Part shown: positions 29,903 through 36,950 of the stretch, in pieces
Numbering within the stretch: the stretch's first letter is position 1
Layout of the letters: every line of letters begins with the position of its first letter
Origin: Pseudobutyrivibrio sp.
GTDB taxonomy: Bacteria > Bacillota > Clostridia > Lachnospirales > Lachnospiraceae
NCBI RefSeq assembly: GCF_015057185.1
Contig: NZ_SVEV01000019.1
Span: 1 to 64,000 of the forward strand
Length of the DNA: 64,000 nt
Direction: 5' to 3'
The notes under the pieces: model-generated
What the model was told of the DNA's origin: nothing
Seen by the model: only the letters and a program-made list of their open reading frames with translations
Databases searched by the model: none
Translations under genes and position numbers: made by a program

Positions 29903-30403
29903 ATGAACAAAAAAGTATTATTTATTTGCCAGGGCGCAATGATTGCGGCCATTTATGTTGTGTTAACTATGTTTATTAACACATTCAATCTTGCAAGTGG
30001 AGCAATTCAGGTTAGAATTTCAGAGGCATTATGTATCTTGCCTATTTTTACTCCAGCAGCTGTTCCAGGATTGTTCGTTGGTTGCCTACTATCAAATATA
30101 TTTATGGGTAGCGCAATCTATGATATTATTTTTGGTAGTCTTGCAACATTAATAGGTGCTTTCGGTACATACTACCTTAGAAAGACAAAGTTCGTATTTA
30201 CATTACCACCTGTTATTGCAAATGGCATTATTATCCCATTAGTACTTAGATTTGCTTATCATATGACAGATGCTTACTGGTTCTTAGTAGCTACTGTATG
30301 TGCAGGCGAAATCATTTGTGTATGCATTTTAGGCATGATTTTAAAGGCTGCTCTTTGGCCACAGCATAAATTCATTTTTAGAAATGCAGAATTGAATGCC
30401 TAA
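29903..30403 (+). CDS. queT: QueT, queuosine precursor ECF transporter substrate component
   Basis: 166-aa membrane protein of the QueT (DUF988) family with about five to six helices. Diagnostic segments are IQVRISEALCILPIF, TPAAVPGLFVGCLLSN and YDIIFGSLATLIGA. It imports a queuine or preQ-type precursor for the tRNA wobble base queuosine with the ECF energy module. The upstream preQ1-I riboswitch independently supports this. It precedes argS by 27 nt, so the two may share a transcript. Confidence 0.93.
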   Translation: MNKKVLFICQGAMIAAIYVVLTMFINTFNLASGAIQVRISEALCILPIFTPAAVPGLFVGCLLSNIFMGSAIYDIIFGSLATLIGAFGTYYLRKTKFVFTLPPVIANGIIIPLVLRFAYHMTDAYWFLVATVCAGEIICVCILGMILKAALWPQHKFIFRNAELNA

Positions 30404-30430: not shown

Positions 30431-32191
30431 ATGAAAGAAATACTTGGACAAATCAAAGAACAAGTAATTGCTGGCTTTAAATCAGCAGGTTATGATGAAA
30501 AATATGCAATGGTTACACTATCAAACAGACCTGATTTATGCCAGTTTCAGTGCAATGGAGCTATGGCAGCAGCAAAAGAATACAAAAAGGCACCAATTGC
30601 TATCGCTAATGAGGTAGTAGAGAAGTTAGCTGATAATGCAATGTTTTCTAAGTGCGAGGCATGCCCACCAGGCTTCATTAATATGAACCTTTCTGATGAG
30701 TTTATAGCAGCTTTTGTTTCAAAAATGGCTGATGACACAGAGAGATTTGGAGTGGACAAGGTTTCTACACCTAAGAAAGTAATGATTGATTACGGCGGAC
30801 CTAATGTGGCAAAGCCACTTCACGTAGGTCACCTTCGTTCAGCTATTATTGGTGAGTCAATTAAGCGCACAGCTCGTTTTATGGGTGATGAAGTAGTAGG
30901 TGATGTTCACCTTGGCGATTGGGGTCTTCAGATGGGACTTATCATTACAGAGCTCAAACTTCGCAAGCCTGAACTTGTATACTTTGATGAAAACTATGAT
31001 GGAGAGTATCCAACAGAGGCTCCGTTTACTATTTCAGAGCTTGAAGAGATTTATCCATGTGCTTCTGGAAAGTCAAAGGAAGACCCTGCATACAAAGAAG
31101 CAGCTATGACAGCTACATATGAGCTTCAGCACGGTCGCAAGGGCTATCAGGCACTTCTTTCTCATATTCTTAATGTTTCAGTTAATGACCTTAAGAGAAA
31201 TTATGAGAAGCTTGATGTTACTTTTGACCTTTGGAAGGGAGAGAGTGATGCTCAGCCTTATATCCCAGATATGGTTCAAAAGATGAAGGATGATGGATTT
31301 GCATATATCTCTGAGGGAGCACTTGTAGTTGATGTCAAAGAAGACACAGATACAAAAGAGGTGCCACCATGTATGATTCTTAAATCTGATGGTGCTTCAC
31401 TTTACAATACAACTGATCTTGCAACAATGGTATGGAGAATGAAGGATTATAATCCAGATTCAATCATTTATGTTGTTGATAAGCGTCAGGAATTATATTT
31501 CACACAGGTATTTAGATGTGCTAAAAAGACAGGAATAGTTCCTGCTGATACTAATCTTTATTTCGTAGGCTTTGGTACTATGAATGGTAAGGATGGCAAA
31601 CCATTCAAGACACGTCAGGGTGGCGTTATGAGACTTGAGTATCTCCTTGCTGAGGTAGAGGAAAAGATGCTTGAGAAGATTAAAGAGAATGGTACAATGA
31701 ATGATGAGGATGCTGAAAAGACAGCTCAGATAGTTGGACTTTCAGCTGTTAAATATGGAGACCTTTCTAATCAGGCATCAAAGGATTATATCTTTGATAT
31801 TGATAGATTTACCTCTGCAGAGGGAAATACAGGTCCATACATTCTTTACACAATCGTTAGATGTAAGTCAATCCTTACAAAGGCAGGCGTTAGCAGCTTT
31901 GATGGCGCTATTCTTCCAGCTCATTCTGAGTCAGAGAGAGCACTTCAGCTTGAACTTACAAAGTTTATGGCAGCTCTTTCTTCTGCATATGAGGATATGG
32001 CTCCTCACAAGATTTGTGCTTATATCTATGATTTAGCTAATGCATTTAATAGATTTTATCATGATACAAAGATTTTAGCTGAGGAGGACGAGGCTGTTAA
32101 GGCAAGCTACCTTAAGCTTTTATGGCTTACTAGAGGTGTTCTTGAAAAGGCAATTGACCTTCTCGGTTTTAAAGCACCGGAGCGTATGTAA
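30431..32191 (+). CDS. argS: Arginyl-tRNA synthetase
   Basis: 586-aa class Ia synthetase charging tRNA-Arg. N-terminal Add1 domain, HIGH motif as HVGH near residue 130 in GGPNVAKPLHVGHLRS, the degenerate KMSKS region as KDGKPFKTRQGG, and the all-helical anticodon-binding domain at the end. RBS GGAGGAAG. Its TAA shares one base with the next ATG (TAATG), indicating translational coupling to the rRNA methyltransferase. Confidence 0.96.
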   Translation: MKEILGQIKEQVIAGFKSAGYDEKYAMVTLSNRPDLCQFQCNGAMAAAKEYKKAPIAIANEVVEKLADNAMFSKCEACPPGFINMNLSDEFIAAFVSKMADDTERFGVDKVSTPKKVMIDYGGPNVAKPLHVGHLRSAIIGESIKRTARFMGDEVVGDVHLGDWGLQMGLIITELKLRKPELVYFDENYDGEYPTEAPFTISELEEIYPCASGKSKEDPAYKEAAMTATYELQHGRKGYQALLSHILNVSVNDLKRNYEKLDVTFDLWKGESDAQPYIPDMVQKMKDDGFAYISEGALVVDVKEDTDTKEVPPCMILKSDGASLYNTTDLATMVWRMKDYNPDSIIYVVDKRQELYFTQVFRCAKKTGIVPADTNLYFVGFGTMNGKDGKPFKTRQGGVMRLEYLLAEVEEKMLEKIKENGTMNDEDAEKTAQIVGLSAVKYGDLSNQASKDYIFDIDRFTSAEGNTGPYILYTIVRCKSILTKAGVSSFDGAILPAHSESERALQLELTKFMAALSSAYEDMAPHKICAYIYDLANAFNRFYHDTKILAEEDEAVKASYLKLLWLTRGVLEKAIDLLGFKAPERM

Positions 32192-33516
32192 TGTCAGAAC
32201 AATCTTTTTTACCAATTGATTTTATTAACCGCATGGAGCAGGACTTAGGTCCTGACTTCCATGCGTTTTTGCGTTCTTATGATGAGAACAAGATATCTGC
32301 TCTTAGATTTAATCCAATCAAAGCCGACAAAAAGGCAATTGAAAATATGGCAGATACACTAAAAGAAAATGTTGATTGGAGCCCTAATGGCTACTACTAT
32401 GATGATGAAAACAGTAGGCCAGGAATTCATCCATATCATCATGCGGGAGTATATTATATTCAGGACGCATCAGCTCAGCTACCAGTTGAGATGCTTTCTG
32501 TGCAGCCAGGAGACTATTGCCTGGATTTGTGCGCTGCACCAGGTGGTAAATCTACTCAGATAGCAGGCTATTTAATGGGCCAGGGACTTCTTGTTTCCAA
32601 TGAGCCGATGAAAAATAGAGCAAAGATTCTATCAGAGAATGTAGAACGCCTTGGAATAAGAAATGCCATTGTCACATCAGAGTATCCAGACAAACTTGCT
32701 GAGACATTTCCATTGTACTTTGATAAAATAATGGTGGATGCGCCATGCTCTGGTGAGGGTATGTTTAGAAAAAATCATGATGCGTGTGCAGAGTGGTCTT
32801 TAGAATCAGTGGAAATGTGCGCTGAAAGACAGGCTCAGATTTTTGACTGTGCTTATGAGATGCTTATTCCGGGAGGAAGAATTTGTTATAGCACATGTAC
32901 CTTTGCCAAATTAGAGGATGAAGAGGCAGTTGCTGATTTTATTAAGAGACATCCAGATATGACCCTTATTGAGGAGCGCAGGCTATGGCCACATCAGGTA
33001 AAGGGAGAGGGACATTATGCAGCCCTTCTTGAAAAAGCTGATTTAGATAACATAGCAGAAGACTGCGCAGCCAATAGAAAACAATATCCACTTAAAAAGA
33101 TTAATAATAGAACTATTAATGACTATTTAGTTTTTGCTAAAGAAGTCATGACAGAACCAATATTAGATAATCTGCTTCTTGTAAATGACCAGTTATATAG
33201 TTTGCCGGCTAATTGCCCAGACTTTACTGGTATTCATGTTCTAAGAGGCGGATTATTCTTAGGATCATTTAAAAAGAATCGCTTTGAACCAAGCCATGCC
33301 TTGGCTCTTGCACTAAAGGATACAGAAGTAAAAAATAGTTATAATTTATCTAGAGAGGACTCTGACACTGACAACTATCTAAAGGGGCAGTCAATATATG
33401 GACAGGTAAAGGATGGTTGGACTTTGATAACAGTAGATGGATATTCTTTGGGATGGGGTAAGGCTTCAAAAGGCCAAATAAAAAATCATTATCCGAAGGG
33501 ATTGCGTAAAGTATGA
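32191..33516 (+). CDS. RsmF-like rRNA/tRNA m5C methyltransferase (NOL1/NOP2/Sun family)
   Basis: 441-aa SAM-dependent cytosine-5 methyltransferase. SAM site CAAPGGKSTQ near residue 113, the catalytic cysteines in DAPCSGEG (near 183) and YSTCTF (near 232). The C-terminal 130 residues resemble the RsmF-type PUA-like domain (GWGKASKGQIKNHYPKGLRK). Likely target is 16S rRNA, but the exact cytosine cannot be assigned. Overlaps argS by one base and the next gene by four. Confidence 0.88.
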   Translation: MSEQSFLPIDFINRMEQDLGPDFHAFLRSYDENKISALRFNPIKADKKAIENMADTLKENVDWSPNGYYYDDENSRPGIHPYHHAGVYYIQDASAQLPVEMLSVQPGDYCLDLCAAPGGKSTQIAGYLMGQGLLVSNEPMKNRAKILSENVERLGIRNAIVTSEYPDKLAETFPLYFDKIMVDAPCSGEGMFRKNHDACAEWSLESVEMCAERQAQIFDCAYEMLIPGGRICYSTCTFAKLEDEEAVADFIKRHPDMTLIEERRLWPHQVKGEGHYAALLEKADLDNIAEDCAANRKQYPLKKINNRTINDYLVFAKEVMTEPILDNLLLVNDQLYSLPANCPDFTGIHVLRGGLFLGSFKKNRFEPSHALALALKDTEVKNSYNLSREDSDTDNYLKGQSIYGQVKDGWTLITVDGYSLGWGKASKGQIKNHYPKGLRKV

Positions 33517-34379
33517 TTCACAAAATTTATATGCACAAACAAGATATATACGAGTTTATTATGTTCACTGTTGCCTCAGCAGTGATGGTTATAGGTATCT
33601 ATTTTTTTAAGTTCCCTAACCATTTTTCATTTGGTGGCGTTAGTGGTCTTTCTATTGTTTTGTCAGAATTGTTGCCTAAGACACCAGGTTCTATTAACCT
33701 GATAATTAATATTTTCCTGTTGTTATTGGGCTTTATTGTTTTTGGAAAAGAATTTGGAATTAAGACAACTTATATTACACTTTTAGTTTCATTTGGACCT
33801 AGTATTCTAGAAAAAATTAGTCCAATGGATGGTCCTCTTACAGAGCAGCCAGTTTTAGAGCTTATGTTTGCGATTGCACTGCCAGCATTTGCTTCAGCTG
33901 TTTTTTTCAACCTGGGAGCATCTTCAGGCGGAACAGATATTGTTGCCATGATTCTTAAAAAATATACAAAGGTAGATATTGGTACTGCATTATTTATGTC
34001 TGATGTAATGATAGTCATTAGTGCATGCCTAGTATTTAATGTGCAGACAGGTCTATTTTCATTGGTAGGTCTATTGGCCAAGTCTCTTGTAGTAGATGAG
34101 ACTATAGAGAACATTAACCTAGCTAAATATTTTACTATTATATGTAATGACCCAGAGCCTATAGTGAATTTCATTATGAATGATTTAGGCAAGGGCGCTA
34201 CTGTTTATAAGGCTCAGGGTGCTTACGGTCATAAAGAAAAAACTGTTATTCTTACAATTCTTAAAAGACAACAGGCTGTAGAATTGAAAAATTATATTCG
34301 TAGAAATCAACCTAGTGCCTTTATTGCTATTACAAATAGTAGTGAGATAATTGGCAAAGGCTTTAGAGGATACAATTAA
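33513..34379 (+). CDS. YitT family membrane protein (DUF161 + DUF2179)
   Basis: 288 aa: five to six membrane helices in the first 200 residues, with the family segments FGGVSGLSIVLS and NLGASSGGTDIVA, then a soluble C-terminal DUF2179 domain (YKAQGAYGHKEKTVILTIL). Physiological role unresolved in most species. ATGA overlap with the upstream methyltransferase. Confidence 0.85.
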   Translation: MIHKIYMHKQDIYEFIMFTVASAVMVIGIYFFKFPNHFSFGGVSGLSIVLSELLPKTPGSINLIINIFLLLLGFIVFGKEFGIKTTYITLLVSFGPSILEKISPMDGPLTEQPVLELMFAIALPAFASAVFFNLGASSGGTDIVAMILKKYTKVDIGTALFMSDVMIVISACLVFNVQTGLFSLVGLLAKSLVVDETIENINLAKYFTIICNDPEPIVNFIMNDLGKGATVYKAQGAYGHKEKTVILTILKRQQAVELKNYIRRNQPSAFIAITNSSEIIGKGFRGYN

Positions 34380-34397
34380 AATTACTTGGAGAATGAT

Positions 34398-36950
34398 ATG
34401 AACTTTACTTGGGGAATTCTTGCTCATGTTGATGCTGGCAAGACAACTTTGTCAGAGGCAATTTTATACAACTCAGGAATATTGGCGTCCATTGGTCGAG
34501 TAGACCATGGTGACGCCTTTTTAGATACCGACTCTCAAGAAAAAAATAGAGGAATTACTATTTTTTCTAAGCCGGCTGTTTTTTCGTTTAATGGTTCTAA
34601 TATGACCCTTCTTGATACTCCGGGCCATGTGGATTTTGCCACAGAGACAGAGAGAGCCTTATGGGCCCTTGATGGGGCCATTCTTTTGATAAGTGGAACA
34701 GATGGGGTTCAGCCTCATACCAAAACATTGTTTTCACTTCTTCAGAAATACAATATACCCACAATCATTTTCATTAATAAAATGGATATGCCTGATACGG
34801 ACGCTAACAGGCTTATTTTAGGTATCAGAAAAGAGCTAAAGGATAATTGTGCATTTATAAATGATTATGAATCTATAGCGGCAGAGAATGAGATGGCTAT
34901 GGATGAGTATTTGGAAACTGATTCTCTATCAGATGCAACAATTATGTCTATGATTTTAAATAGAGATTTCTATCCTGTTCTTACAGGCTCAGCCCTAAAA
35001 AATGAGGGAATAGGGGAACTGCTAGCCTTAATGTCAAAGGTGGTTGCAAACAGAAGGCCGGCAGGCAGCAGTGAATTTGGAGCAAGAGTTTACAAAATCG
35101 AGAGCCTTGGAAGCGATAGTAGGTTAACCTTTGCAAAAATAACTGGTGGAACAATCAATGTGAAAGATAATCTGCCCAATGGAGAAAAAATCGATCAGAT
35201 TCGTGTGTATTCCGGAAGTAAATTTGGACAGGTAAATTCTGCTGGTGAAGGGGATATTGTAGCCTTAGTTGGACCTAAAACAACCTATGCAGGTCAGGGA
35301 CTTGGAACTGAAACTGATAGAGCAGAACTAAATATTACTCCAGTATTACAATATCAATTGGTATTTTTGGATGATACTGTTCCTAGAGTTGCCTATCCAA
35401 AGCTTGCTGCTCTTAATGAGGAAGACCCATCCTTAAATCTTTCATGGGATGCTAATCTAGAGCAGATTAGAGTTAATTTGATGGGTCAGATACAAACTGA
35501 AATTTTAACTGCACGTATCAAAAATATACTTGGAATTGAAGTAAGCTTTGAAGAGTGCGGTGTTTTATATAAAGAGACTATCGCTTCACCGGTTGAAGGT
35601 GTAGGGCATTTTGAGCCACTTCGCCATTATGCAGAAGCACATATTTATATGGAACCAGCAGAACCAGGCAGTGGAATAACAGTTTCTGCAAATGTTTCTA
35701 CTGATCAACTTGCTTTAAATTGGCAGAGGCTTATTACCACACACATTCTAGAAAAAGAGCATGTTGGTATTCTCATTGGTGCACCATTGACAGATATTAA
35801 ATATACAATTGTTGGTGGCAGAGCACACATAAAGCATACTGAGGGTGGAGATTTTAGAGAGGCTACCTATAGGGCTATTAGACAGGGCTTGATGGAAACT
35901 GGCACTAAAATCTTAGAGCCTTATTTCAAATTCGAAATTTCTGTGCCATCTGGCCAGATTGGTCGCGTTATGAGTGATGTGCAAGCAATGAATGGTTCCT
36001 TTGAATCGCCTATAGAAGTAGATGGACGTTCTATTCTTAATGGAACTGCACCAGTTGCTACAATCAGAAACTATCAGGCAAAACTTGCTGCATTTACCAA
36101 GGGAGAAGGAAGAATATCCCTTGTGTTTAACGGATATAATGATTGCCACAATGAAAGTGAAGTATTAGAACAATTTGCCTACGATCCTGATATGGATGCT
36201 GATAATCCTTCTTCTTCAGTATTTTGTAGTCATGGCTCAGGAGAGCTTGTGCCTTGGGACGAAGTGAAATCTAGATGTCATGTGCCATGTATTCAGGACC
36301 GAGATAATCCTCAGGACGAAGAGGTAATTAACACAAAAAGAATGAATCATGGTGTGGATGAATGGCTAGATCCAGATGAGATTGATAGGATTTTACATAT
36401 GGCTACTCATAGTAACCACGGGAAGAATCCAAAGAAAGGCTGGCATTATGGCCAGACATCTAGGCCTAGAAGAGTAGACAGTGATTATGAATATCAAGCA
36501 CCTAAGGAAATAAAACCAAAGGAGAAATATTTGCTGGTTGATGGCTACAATTTGATATATGCATGGCCTGAATTGAAGGAGGTCCTTGAGGTCAATTTGG
36601 ATGGAGCAAGAGGTAAGCTCCTTGATATTCTAAGTAACTACAAAGCTATGACGGATTATAATGTGATTGCTGTTTTTGATGCCTATAAAGTAAAAGGGCA
36701 TGAGGTTACAGCCTCTGACTATCTTAATATCCATCAGGTATTTACAGCTGAGGCTCAGACAGCTGATGCTTATATTGAGAGATTTACTCATGAGCATGGA
36801 AAAAAATATGATATTACAGTAGTTACATCCGATGGATTAGAGCAGTTAATAATTAGAGGAGCTGGTGCAAAACTAGTATCTTCAAGGGAATTCATAAGTG
36901 AGGTGGAAAGCAGAGCAATAGAACTTAGGGAAAAATATAACATAAAATGA
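34398..36950 (+). CDS. TetM-like ribosomal GTPase fused to a Rae1/YacP-type endoribonuclease domain
   Basis: 850 aa. Residues about 1-640 are an EF-G/TetM-type translational GTPase: G1 AHVDAGKTT, G2 NRGITI, G3 DTPGHVDF, G4 NKMD, then domains II-V. The domain IV loop that in Tet(M)/Tet(O) reads SPVSTP is replaced by KHTEGGDF, so drug displacement is doubtful. After a charged linker, residues about 708-850 form a NYN/PIN nuclease domain close to B. subtilis Rae1 (YacP): YLLVDGYNLIYAWPEL, VIAVFDAYKVKG, TADAYIERF, VVTSDGLEQ, the aspartates being the expected metal ligands. Rae1 cuts mRNA in the ribosomal A site, where TetM-like factors bind. Start 34398 has GGAG six bases upstream; TTG at 34386 is an alternative. 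Downstream of argS and an rRNA methyltransferase. Confidence 0.88.
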   Translation: MNFTWGILAHVDAGKTTLSEAILYNSGILASIGRVDHGDAFLDTDSQEKNRGITIFSKPAVFSFNGSNMTLLDTPGHVDFATETERALWALDGAILLISGTDGVQPHTKTLFSLLQKYNIPTIIFINKMDMPDTDANRLILGIRKELKDNCAFINDYESIAAENEMAMDEYLETDSLSDATIMSMILNRDFYPVLTGSALKNEGIGELLALMSKVVANRRPAGSSEFGARVYKIESLGSDSRLTFAKITGGTINVKDNLPNGEKIDQIRVYSGSKFGQVNSAGEGDIVALVGPKTTYAGQGLGTETDRAELNITPVLQYQLVFLDDTVPRVAYPKLAALNEEDPSLNLSWDANLEQIRVNLMGQIQTEILTARIKNILGIEVSFEECGVLYKETIASPVEGVGHFEPLRHYAEAHIYMEPAEPGSGITVSANVSTDQLALNWQRLITTHILEKEHVGILIGAPLTDIKYTIVGGRAHIKHTEGGDFREATYRAIRQGLMETGTKILEPYFKFEISVPSGQIGRVMSDVQAMNGSFESPIEVDGRSILNGTAPVATIRNYQAKLAAFTKGEGRISLVFNGYNDCHNESEVLEQFAYDPDMDADNPSSSVFCSHGSGELVPWDEVKSRCHVPCIQDRDNPQDEEVINTKRMNHGVDEWLDPDEIDRILHMATHSNHGKNPKKGWHYGQTSRPRRVDSDYEYQAPKEIKPKEKYLLVDGYNLIYAWPELKEVLEVNLDGARGKLLDILSNYKAMTDYNVIAVFDAYKVKGHEVTASDYLNIHQVFTAEAQTADAYIERFTHEHGKKYDITVVTSDGLEQLIIRGAGAKLVSSREFISEVESRAIELREKYNIK

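Follow-up and report, generated by a model that had tools for sequence, protein, structure and literature searches.

Rae1 is an endoribonuclease of the ribosomal A site (PMC6613710) that destabilizes mRNAs in a translation-dependent manner (PMC6613710, PMC10100781), and in Bacillus subtilis its gene is adjacent to, and co-transcribed with, yacO, the homologue of rlmB (PMC6613710). Tet proteins carrying a YacP-like NYN domain were described in ten Clostridiales species, with the suggestion of RNase activity (Atkinson 2015, BMC Genomics, PMC4342817), and the architecture has been in print since 2015. The present study examines such a gene in a 64,000-nucleotide (nt) stretch of Pseudobutyrivibrio sp. 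(GCF_015057185.1, NZ_SVEV01000019.1, positions 1-64,000, forward strand), hereafter the window. Its product, encoded in a clostridial genome, joins an EF-G/Tet-type GTPase to a YacP-like NYN domain at the C-terminus, and agrees with the fusions of Atkinson 2015 in architecture and bacterial group. However, that paper (PMC4342817) files the fusions under Tet and proposes a resistance role, whereas the gene examined here lies in a clade beside Tet, looks core-like and appears to stand in for standalone Rae1. We consider it probable, though well short of certain, that the fusion is a resident Rae1-type, ribosome-dependent endoribonuclease whose docking was taken over by a TetM-sister GTPase. In the open-licence literature searched, we found no mention of its occurrence throughout the genus, of the vacant rae1 place, of the either-or distribution of the two Rae1 forms, of the separate GTPase clade or of the loss of the nuclease tail.

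The reading frame is intact, running from the ATG at 34398 to the stop codon at 36948-36950 (850 aa) with no internal stops, and its Pfam domain order is that of a complete EF-G/TetM-like GTPase followed by a C-terminal Rae1/YacP domain. A preliminary description of the window was correct on both points. The gene and its parts are as follows.

34398..36950, + strand: whole gene including the stop codon, TetM-like GTPase plus NYN_YacP (Rae1-type) nuclease, 850 aa (open reading frame (ORF) and Pfam)
34388..34391, + strand: GGAG, a predicted, likely ribosome-binding site 6 nt 5' of the ATG (sequence reading)
34410..35045, + strand: G domain, residues 5-216, with AHVDAGKTT, DTPGH (with the histidine) and NKMD (Pfam GTP_EFTU, E=4.3e-49)
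35061..35561, + strand: domains II and III, residues ~222-388, boundaries approximate (Pfam EF-G_D2 231-302, EFG_III 336-385)
35562..35909, + strand: domain IV, residues 389-504 (Pfam EFG_IV 389-500)
35595..35645, + strand: domain IV motif GVGHFEPLRHYAEAH, within residues 400-416, characteristic of the subfamily and located where loop I would be (placed by eye)
35817..35867, + strand: domain IV loop III GRAHIKHTEGGDFREAT, residues 474-490, replacing the Tet loop YYSPVSTPADFR (alignment)
35910..36155, + strand: domain V, residues 505-586 (Pfam EFG_C 505-586)
36156..36293, + strand: C-terminal extension of the GTPase with the SVFC..G..VPW motif, residues 587-632 (sequence comparison)
36294..36521, + strand: linker, residues 633-708, predicted to be mostly disordered (predicted local distance difference test, pLDDT, <50 at 640-658 and 670-702)
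36372..36407, + strand: short predicted linker helix, residues 659-670, partly conserved (structure model)
36522..36947, + strand: NYN_YacP (Rae1-type) nuclease domain, residues 709-850 (Pfam, solved-structure match, alignment)

The profile comparison proposed earlier for the C-terminal residues assigns residues 712-848 to NYN_YacP (E=1.4e-45; 155.7 bits against a Pfam gathering cut-off of 24.6), with the match reaching position 139 of 166 in the model. The C-terminal part also aligns with the solved YacP/Rae1 chains 5mq8 and 5mq9 (E=2.3e-21), and the four Rae1 motifs reported previously (LLVDGYNLI, VFDAYKVKG, TADAYIERF and VTSDGLEQ) all fall inside this match; the domain is homologous to B. 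subtilis Rae1/YacP over nearly the whole fold and shares its motif residues. The acidic residues D715, D761, D790, E794 and D812, which make up the active site in NYN/PIN nucleases, are present, while the C-terminal tail of standalone Rae1 is absent. An AlphaFold2 model based on 72 fused sequences, including that of the window (mean pLDDT 86; predicted template modelling score, pTM, 0.68), is confident for the GTPase to approximately residue 635, low in the linker, and mostly confident for the nuclease from residue 710. In the Foldseek ranking for the GTPase, EF-G entries stand on top and the TetM-ribosome entry 3j9y is found at rank 49. Judged from sequence, a TetM-related GTPase and a Rae1-type nuclease with its acidic residues retained are genuinely fused, and the fusion is conserved.

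No other NYN_YacP domain was found in the window's assembly, which is 99.83% complete. Among the 37 standalone loci, 35 have rae1 behind rlmB, with spacings of -64 to +58 nt apart from one of 192 nt. The next gene is SigH-like in 29 of the 37, and in 28 of these it lies within 428 nt. A second locus of the window's assembly reads cysS, an mrnC-like gene, rlmB, 14 nt and a SigH-like gene, and no nuclease was found between the last two genes, the usual location of rae1; rlmB scores above its cut-off, the mrnC-like gene was named by reading (no NCBIfam match), and the SigH-like name reflects best models below their cut-offs. Among 12 fused-length genomes inspected, none has a nuclease beside rlmB. 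The SigH-like gene lies at most 295 nt from rlmB in 10 of them, and of the remaining two, one has a 583-nt gap without a SigH-like gene and the other has no SigH-like gene in the stretch read (two more genomes of this survey were left unclassified). In G319, which has free Rae1 and an unfused GTPase, rae1 sits in its usual place. Compared to B. subtilis Rae1, a free protein of ~170 residues encoded behind rlmB (yacO), the nuclease here is a tail-less C-terminal domain encoded at another locus; the tail and the location behind rlmB are traits of the free protein and do not define the domain family. The gene thus looks like the resident Rae1 of its genome, moved from the usual operon place, and not like an extra drug-related gene; the link to drug-bound ribosomes raised in the preliminary description is not supported here.

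NYN_YacP was found in all 29 genomes of the host genus, in frames of 847-872 residues in 27; one frame is shorter (391) and one is in pieces at contig ends. In one single-contig genus genome (G503, locus L289) the gene is split over two frames, of 510 and 390 residues, that overlap. In the host family, 180 of 200 genomes carry the domain, and among the 150 matches listed, 131 lie in frames of at least 848 residues and 9 in frames of 174-185, the other 10 being of intermediate length (hand count). Three genomes of the family sample (G031, G094 and G187) have NYN matches with several internal stops. In the class sample, the domain occurs in 98 of 148 genomes, of which 50 have it in frames of at least 780 aa, 45 as a standalone protein (168-217 residues) and 3 in an intermediate form (hand counts). 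All 50 fused-length class genomes have a GTPase match, and both Rae1 forms were above the cut-off together in none of the 148. The fusion is apparently the sole form of Rae1 in approximately half of the Rae1-bearing genomes of this sample. The phylum-wide sample contains the domain in 86 of 149 genomes, 10 of them with fused-length frames, and 3 of these 10 are from the host class (hand count).

Full-length fused carriers include Pseudobutyrivibrio, Roseburia, Fusibacter, Desulfosporosinus, Clostridium punense, Anaerovorax and Candidatus Oscillibacter, as seen among the 80 top-ranking of at least 586 confirmed stretches. The window protein has its closest named relatives in three Pseudobutyrivibrio sequences with 76, 71 and 71% identity. 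In a Lachnospiraceae metagenome-assembled genome (L164, 288-3085), the GTPase (597 aa) and the linker plus nuclease (335 aa) occupy two frames that overlap by 4 nt, which may be a natural split or an assembly error. Fission of the fused gene was considered as the origin of the family's standalone Rae1, since the NYN tree suggested it; however, seven of the eight family standalone loci sit behind rlmB, which makes fission less likely. Retention of an older split state is preferred, although the tree does not settle the question.

The GTPase part is related to, but distinct from, the Tet(M)/Tet(O) ribosomal protection proteins. The two have the same domain order and are sisters in the tree, but the fusion GTPase lacks SPVSTP, scores below the Tet model cut-offs, has an extra C-terminal extension and is present throughout the host genus. 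The absence of the SPVSTP loop noted previously was confirmed, the equivalent stretch being IKHTEGG. Across alignment A3, which holds 72 fused proteins (nine of 80 loci without a full-length frame inside the contig were left out), SPVSTP occurs in 0 of 72 rows and KHTEGGDFR in 67. Loop III has the length of that in Tet(M) by eye, and the subfamily shares with Tet(M) types the DFR residues that follow it. On the NCBIfam model tet_protect the window protein scores 393.3 bits against a cut-off of 775, placing it outside Tet, and the six subfamily members scanned range from 393 to 468 bits, all below 775. The genuine Tet proteins L210, L211 and L212 score 1000.8, 882.9 and 852.6 bits, respectively, and all carry SPVSTP. 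The protein also falls outside EF-G (TIGR00484, 261.4 bits against a cut-off of 659.4).

A careful tree of 44 rows unites the subfamily members, fused or not, in one clade (support 100/100), and five Tet-type references form a clade (95/87) beside the subfamily without enclosing it. The Tet and subfamily clades are joined at 100/100, with EF-G and EF-G2 outside. Two of the Tet-type references (L208 and L209) fall below 775 and lack SPVSTP, whereas the other three pass on both counts. The fused GTPases form a single clade (100/98) that includes one member without NYN, and their sister is the unfused clade (99/95); this separation points to one fusion event. These clade assignments rest on the careful tree, for which 19 of 52 fused rows were picked by hand and the near-copies L203 and L205 left out, as the quick GTPase and NYN trees contain many weak forks; the quick GTPase tree nested the unfused clade within the fused rows with weak support, in disagreement with the careful tree. 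L218, a locus truncated at a contig end, was not included in the trees. The unfused subfamily GTPases (L200-L207, L214, L217 and L223-L227) have the overall GTPase length seen in the fusion, and those read (L200-L207) share its SVFC..W-type C-terminal extension; they stop shortly past the SVFC..G..VPW extension, near the point where the linker of the fused form starts, and have no nuclease. On these alignments and scores, the GTPase belongs to a Tet-sister subfamily and is not, strictly speaking, a Tet protein. The member without NYN is encoded on the megaplasmid pMP118 of Ligilactobacillus salivarius UCC118 (L214, 5968-7902), is annotated as tetracycline resistance and adjoins the rpsN (S14) gene in divergent orientation. 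Since this GTPase lies within the fused clade, it has probably lost its nuclease.

Both halves of the fusion are strongly conserved in A3. In the GTPase, H77, K128 and D130 are found in 72 of 72 rows and K15 in 71, with one gap; in the nuclease, D715, D761, D790, S811 and D812 are found in 72 of 72 and E794 in 70. Mean identity is higher in domain IV (0.79) than in the other GTPase regions (0.62-0.67), and rises to 0.94 and 0.92 in its two tip motifs (GVGHFEPLRHYAEAH and residues 474-498, respectively). The nuclease (0.68) is similar to the G domain (0.67), while the linker is at 0.28 and its helix, residues 659-670, at 0.54. Within the host genus (20 sequences, 190 pairs), median pairwise identity is highest in NYN (0.91), followed by domain IV (0.83) and the other regions (0.62-0.73). 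The median ratios of nonsynonymous to synonymous substitution rates (dN/dS) are 0.029 for NYN, 0.070 for domain IV and 0.136-0.173 elsewhere, but dS is near saturation and only 22-109 of the 190 pairs are usable per region; dN/dS therefore provides weak support, and plain identity is the safer measure here. The genus sequence in two overlapping frames (L289) was left out of both calculations.

Solved structures show that domain IV of TetM/EF-G-like factors itself occupies the A site. Ribosome binding, RNA cleavage, the order of hand-over and the biological trigger are what we infer from these parts. The GTP-bound GTPase would dock on paused or slow ribosomes with an open A site, where domain IV would probe the decoding centre using loops of its own. 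GTP hydrolysis would release domain IV from the A site, the flexible linker (~75 residues) would keep the nuclease at the ribosome, and the nuclease would cut mRNA within the A site or close to it after domain IV has departed, resulting in translation-dependent mRNA decay. This order is likely because domain IV and Rae1 would want the same place; alternatively, the nuclease might cut beside the still-bound GTPase. The earlier proposal that the fusion places the nuclease in the A site thus requires correction, as the tethered nuclease would act after release of the GTPase or beside it. A more tentative extension is that the protein is a self-contained, GTP-gated A-site nuclease in which the domain IV loops recognize the state of the ribosome and hydrolysis hands the A site to the tethered endonuclease, with the separate GTPase of free-Rae1 lineages being an unrecognized partner of Rae1. 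If so, the mRNA on paused ribosomes would be cut by a single protein. The fusion makes a GTP dependence of the step by which Rae1 reaches the A site directly testable; to a specialist, it is worth testing rather than astonishing.

It is also conceivable, although rather unlikely, that the nuclease acts in the processing or decay of rRNA or tRNA, for instance on stalled or defective ribosomes, with the GTPase as the ribosome anchor and mRNA not as the main target. The original proposal for NYN_YacP was a part in the maturation of rRNA and tRNA (quoted in PMC4342817), and the position of the standalone form with rlmB, a 23S rRNA methyltransferase gene, is consistent with such a role; the translation-dependent destabilization of mRNAs by the studied relative Rae1 (PMC6613710, PMC10100781) argues against it.

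One sign in favour of a resident Rae1 docked by its GTPase is the state of the C-terminal tail (~27 residues). The tail is complete in 37 of 37 standalone Rae1 examined, but in 116 fused copies it is kept in 51, partial in 15 and missing in 50, including that of the window (two of the 50 tail-less matches stop as early as model positions 68 and 83, which could reflect truncation or strong divergence). At least seven changes of tail state are required on the quick, weakly resolved NYN tree, from which five partial-tail fused rows were left out, so tail loss was probably repeated. In B. subtilis, the Rae1 substitution R166P suppressed an efp mutant, as does loss of rae1 (PMC6613710). Judging by its position, R166P would lie in the tail; it is possible that the tail aids ribosome binding by Rae1, in which case the fused GTPase could make it unnecessary.

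A free pairing of the two parts was also observed. In the family, an unfused GTPase is found on another contig in 6 of 9 standalone-Rae1 genomes (counting G099, a partial match with a stop) compared to 0 of 16 Rae1-less genomes, the four least complete of the 20 Rae1-less genomes having been left out (Fisher p 0.0005, uncorrected for ancestry). In family f41, three of five sampled genomes contain standalone Rae1 together with one or two unfused GTPases (L200-L203; L100, L213), a natural two-gene version of the fusion.

Several observations weigh against a resident Rae1 with a GTPase in charge of docking. No Rae1 was found in 50 of the 148 class genomes, some of them incomplete, and its function therefore seems dispensable. 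On the NYN tree, the family's standalone NYNs group in a single branch, so the contrast of 6 of 9 versus 0 of 16 is not independent of ancestry. At the class level, the unfused GTPase occurs in 3 of 45 standalone-Rae1 genomes and 4 of 50 Rae1-less genomes (plus the Rae1-less G329, where it is cut by a contig end), so that the two do not track each other and a Rae1-independent role is open to the GTPase; members of the subfamily without NYN, and unfused ones, exist. In addition, domain IV and Rae1 would, by analogy with their relatives, compete for the A site, the model does not fix the placement of the GTPase relative to the nuclease, given its pTM and disordered linker, and no experimental work on the fusion was found in the open-licence literature searched.

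Some of these points would suit two independent jobs, in which the GTPase has a ribosome function of its own, the nuclease is an ordinary Rae1 and the fusion is a convenience of co-expression. This is improbable. Such a division of labour would fit the unfused GTPases of the class sample, which occur both beside standalone Rae1 (3 genomes) and in its absence (4), and the Ligilactobacillus member that lies inside the fused clade yet has no nuclease, but fused-length frames account for 131 of the 150 family matches listed, and the tail has been lost in fused forms only, more than once on the weakly resolved tree.

Elements with tet(W) and tet(O/32/O) have been moved into Butyrivibrio fibrisolvens and Roseburia inulinivorans with tet(W) as the selectable marker (PMC10696588), which implies susceptible recipients, an argument that presupposes the fusion in these particular strains. 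It is very improbable that the gene is a tetracycline ribosomal-protection protein with an added RNase domain as an extra resistance mechanism, as suggested in Atkinson 2015, since the joint clade with the Tet types (100/100), the DFR residues, the 393 bits on tet_protect and the TetM/TetW family name of an Agathobacter copy are outweighed by a score far below 775, the lack of SPVSTP in all 72 rows, the separate clade, the presence of the fusion in 29 of 29 genus genomes, the absence of a conserved neighbourhood and the implied susceptibility of those recipients (PMC10696588). Tetracycline resistance by the fusion is thus unlikely.

Horizontal spread on plasmids was considered and rejected: a scan of 72,556 plasmid records gave 1388 with similarity to part of the protein, but only 2 in which the match covers at least 80% of it (large replicons of Monoglobus and Agathobacter). 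In a phage collection, the NYN domain was matched by 12 records, of which the 10 shown are all unannotated; these records are taken as probable bacterial stretches. The expectation that annotation pipelines would label the gene as tetracycline resistance was true of the Agathobacter copy, while the Monoglobus copy is named 'translation factor GTPase family protein'. With some copies of a widespread gene recorded as tetracycline resistance, resistance counts could be inflated.

The translation-related context described previously was recovered in part. The gene at 30431-32191 is argS (TIGR00456, above cut-off) and that at 32191-33516, the reported rRNA methyltransferase, is RsmF-like but below cut-off, while a comparison with NCBIfam at E 1e-20 gave no model for the supposed queT (29903-30403) or the ORF at 33513-34379. 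Judging from the spacing, co-transcription with the latter ORF, which ends at 34379, is plausible. None of these neighbours is conserved: of 113 loci, 3 have a gene of the argS type, 5 one of the RsmF type and 4 one of the 33513-34379 type. The neighbourhood was rejected as a functional clue: clustering of the flanking ORFs of the 113 loci gave no conserved partner, and the largest recurring cluster covers 15 of 113 loci in mixed positions and orientations.

Ordinary EF-G was not found in the window's assembly, despite its rating of 99.83% completeness. It is present in five genus mates that are at least 95% complete and absent in three of 81-86% completeness; given the five, its absence here is likely an assembly gap. 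Besides the fusion, the only EF-G-type gene in the assembly is an EF-G2-like paralogue (G000:C49:211320-213371), which has an altered G domain (GHSGAGKTSL, TPGY).

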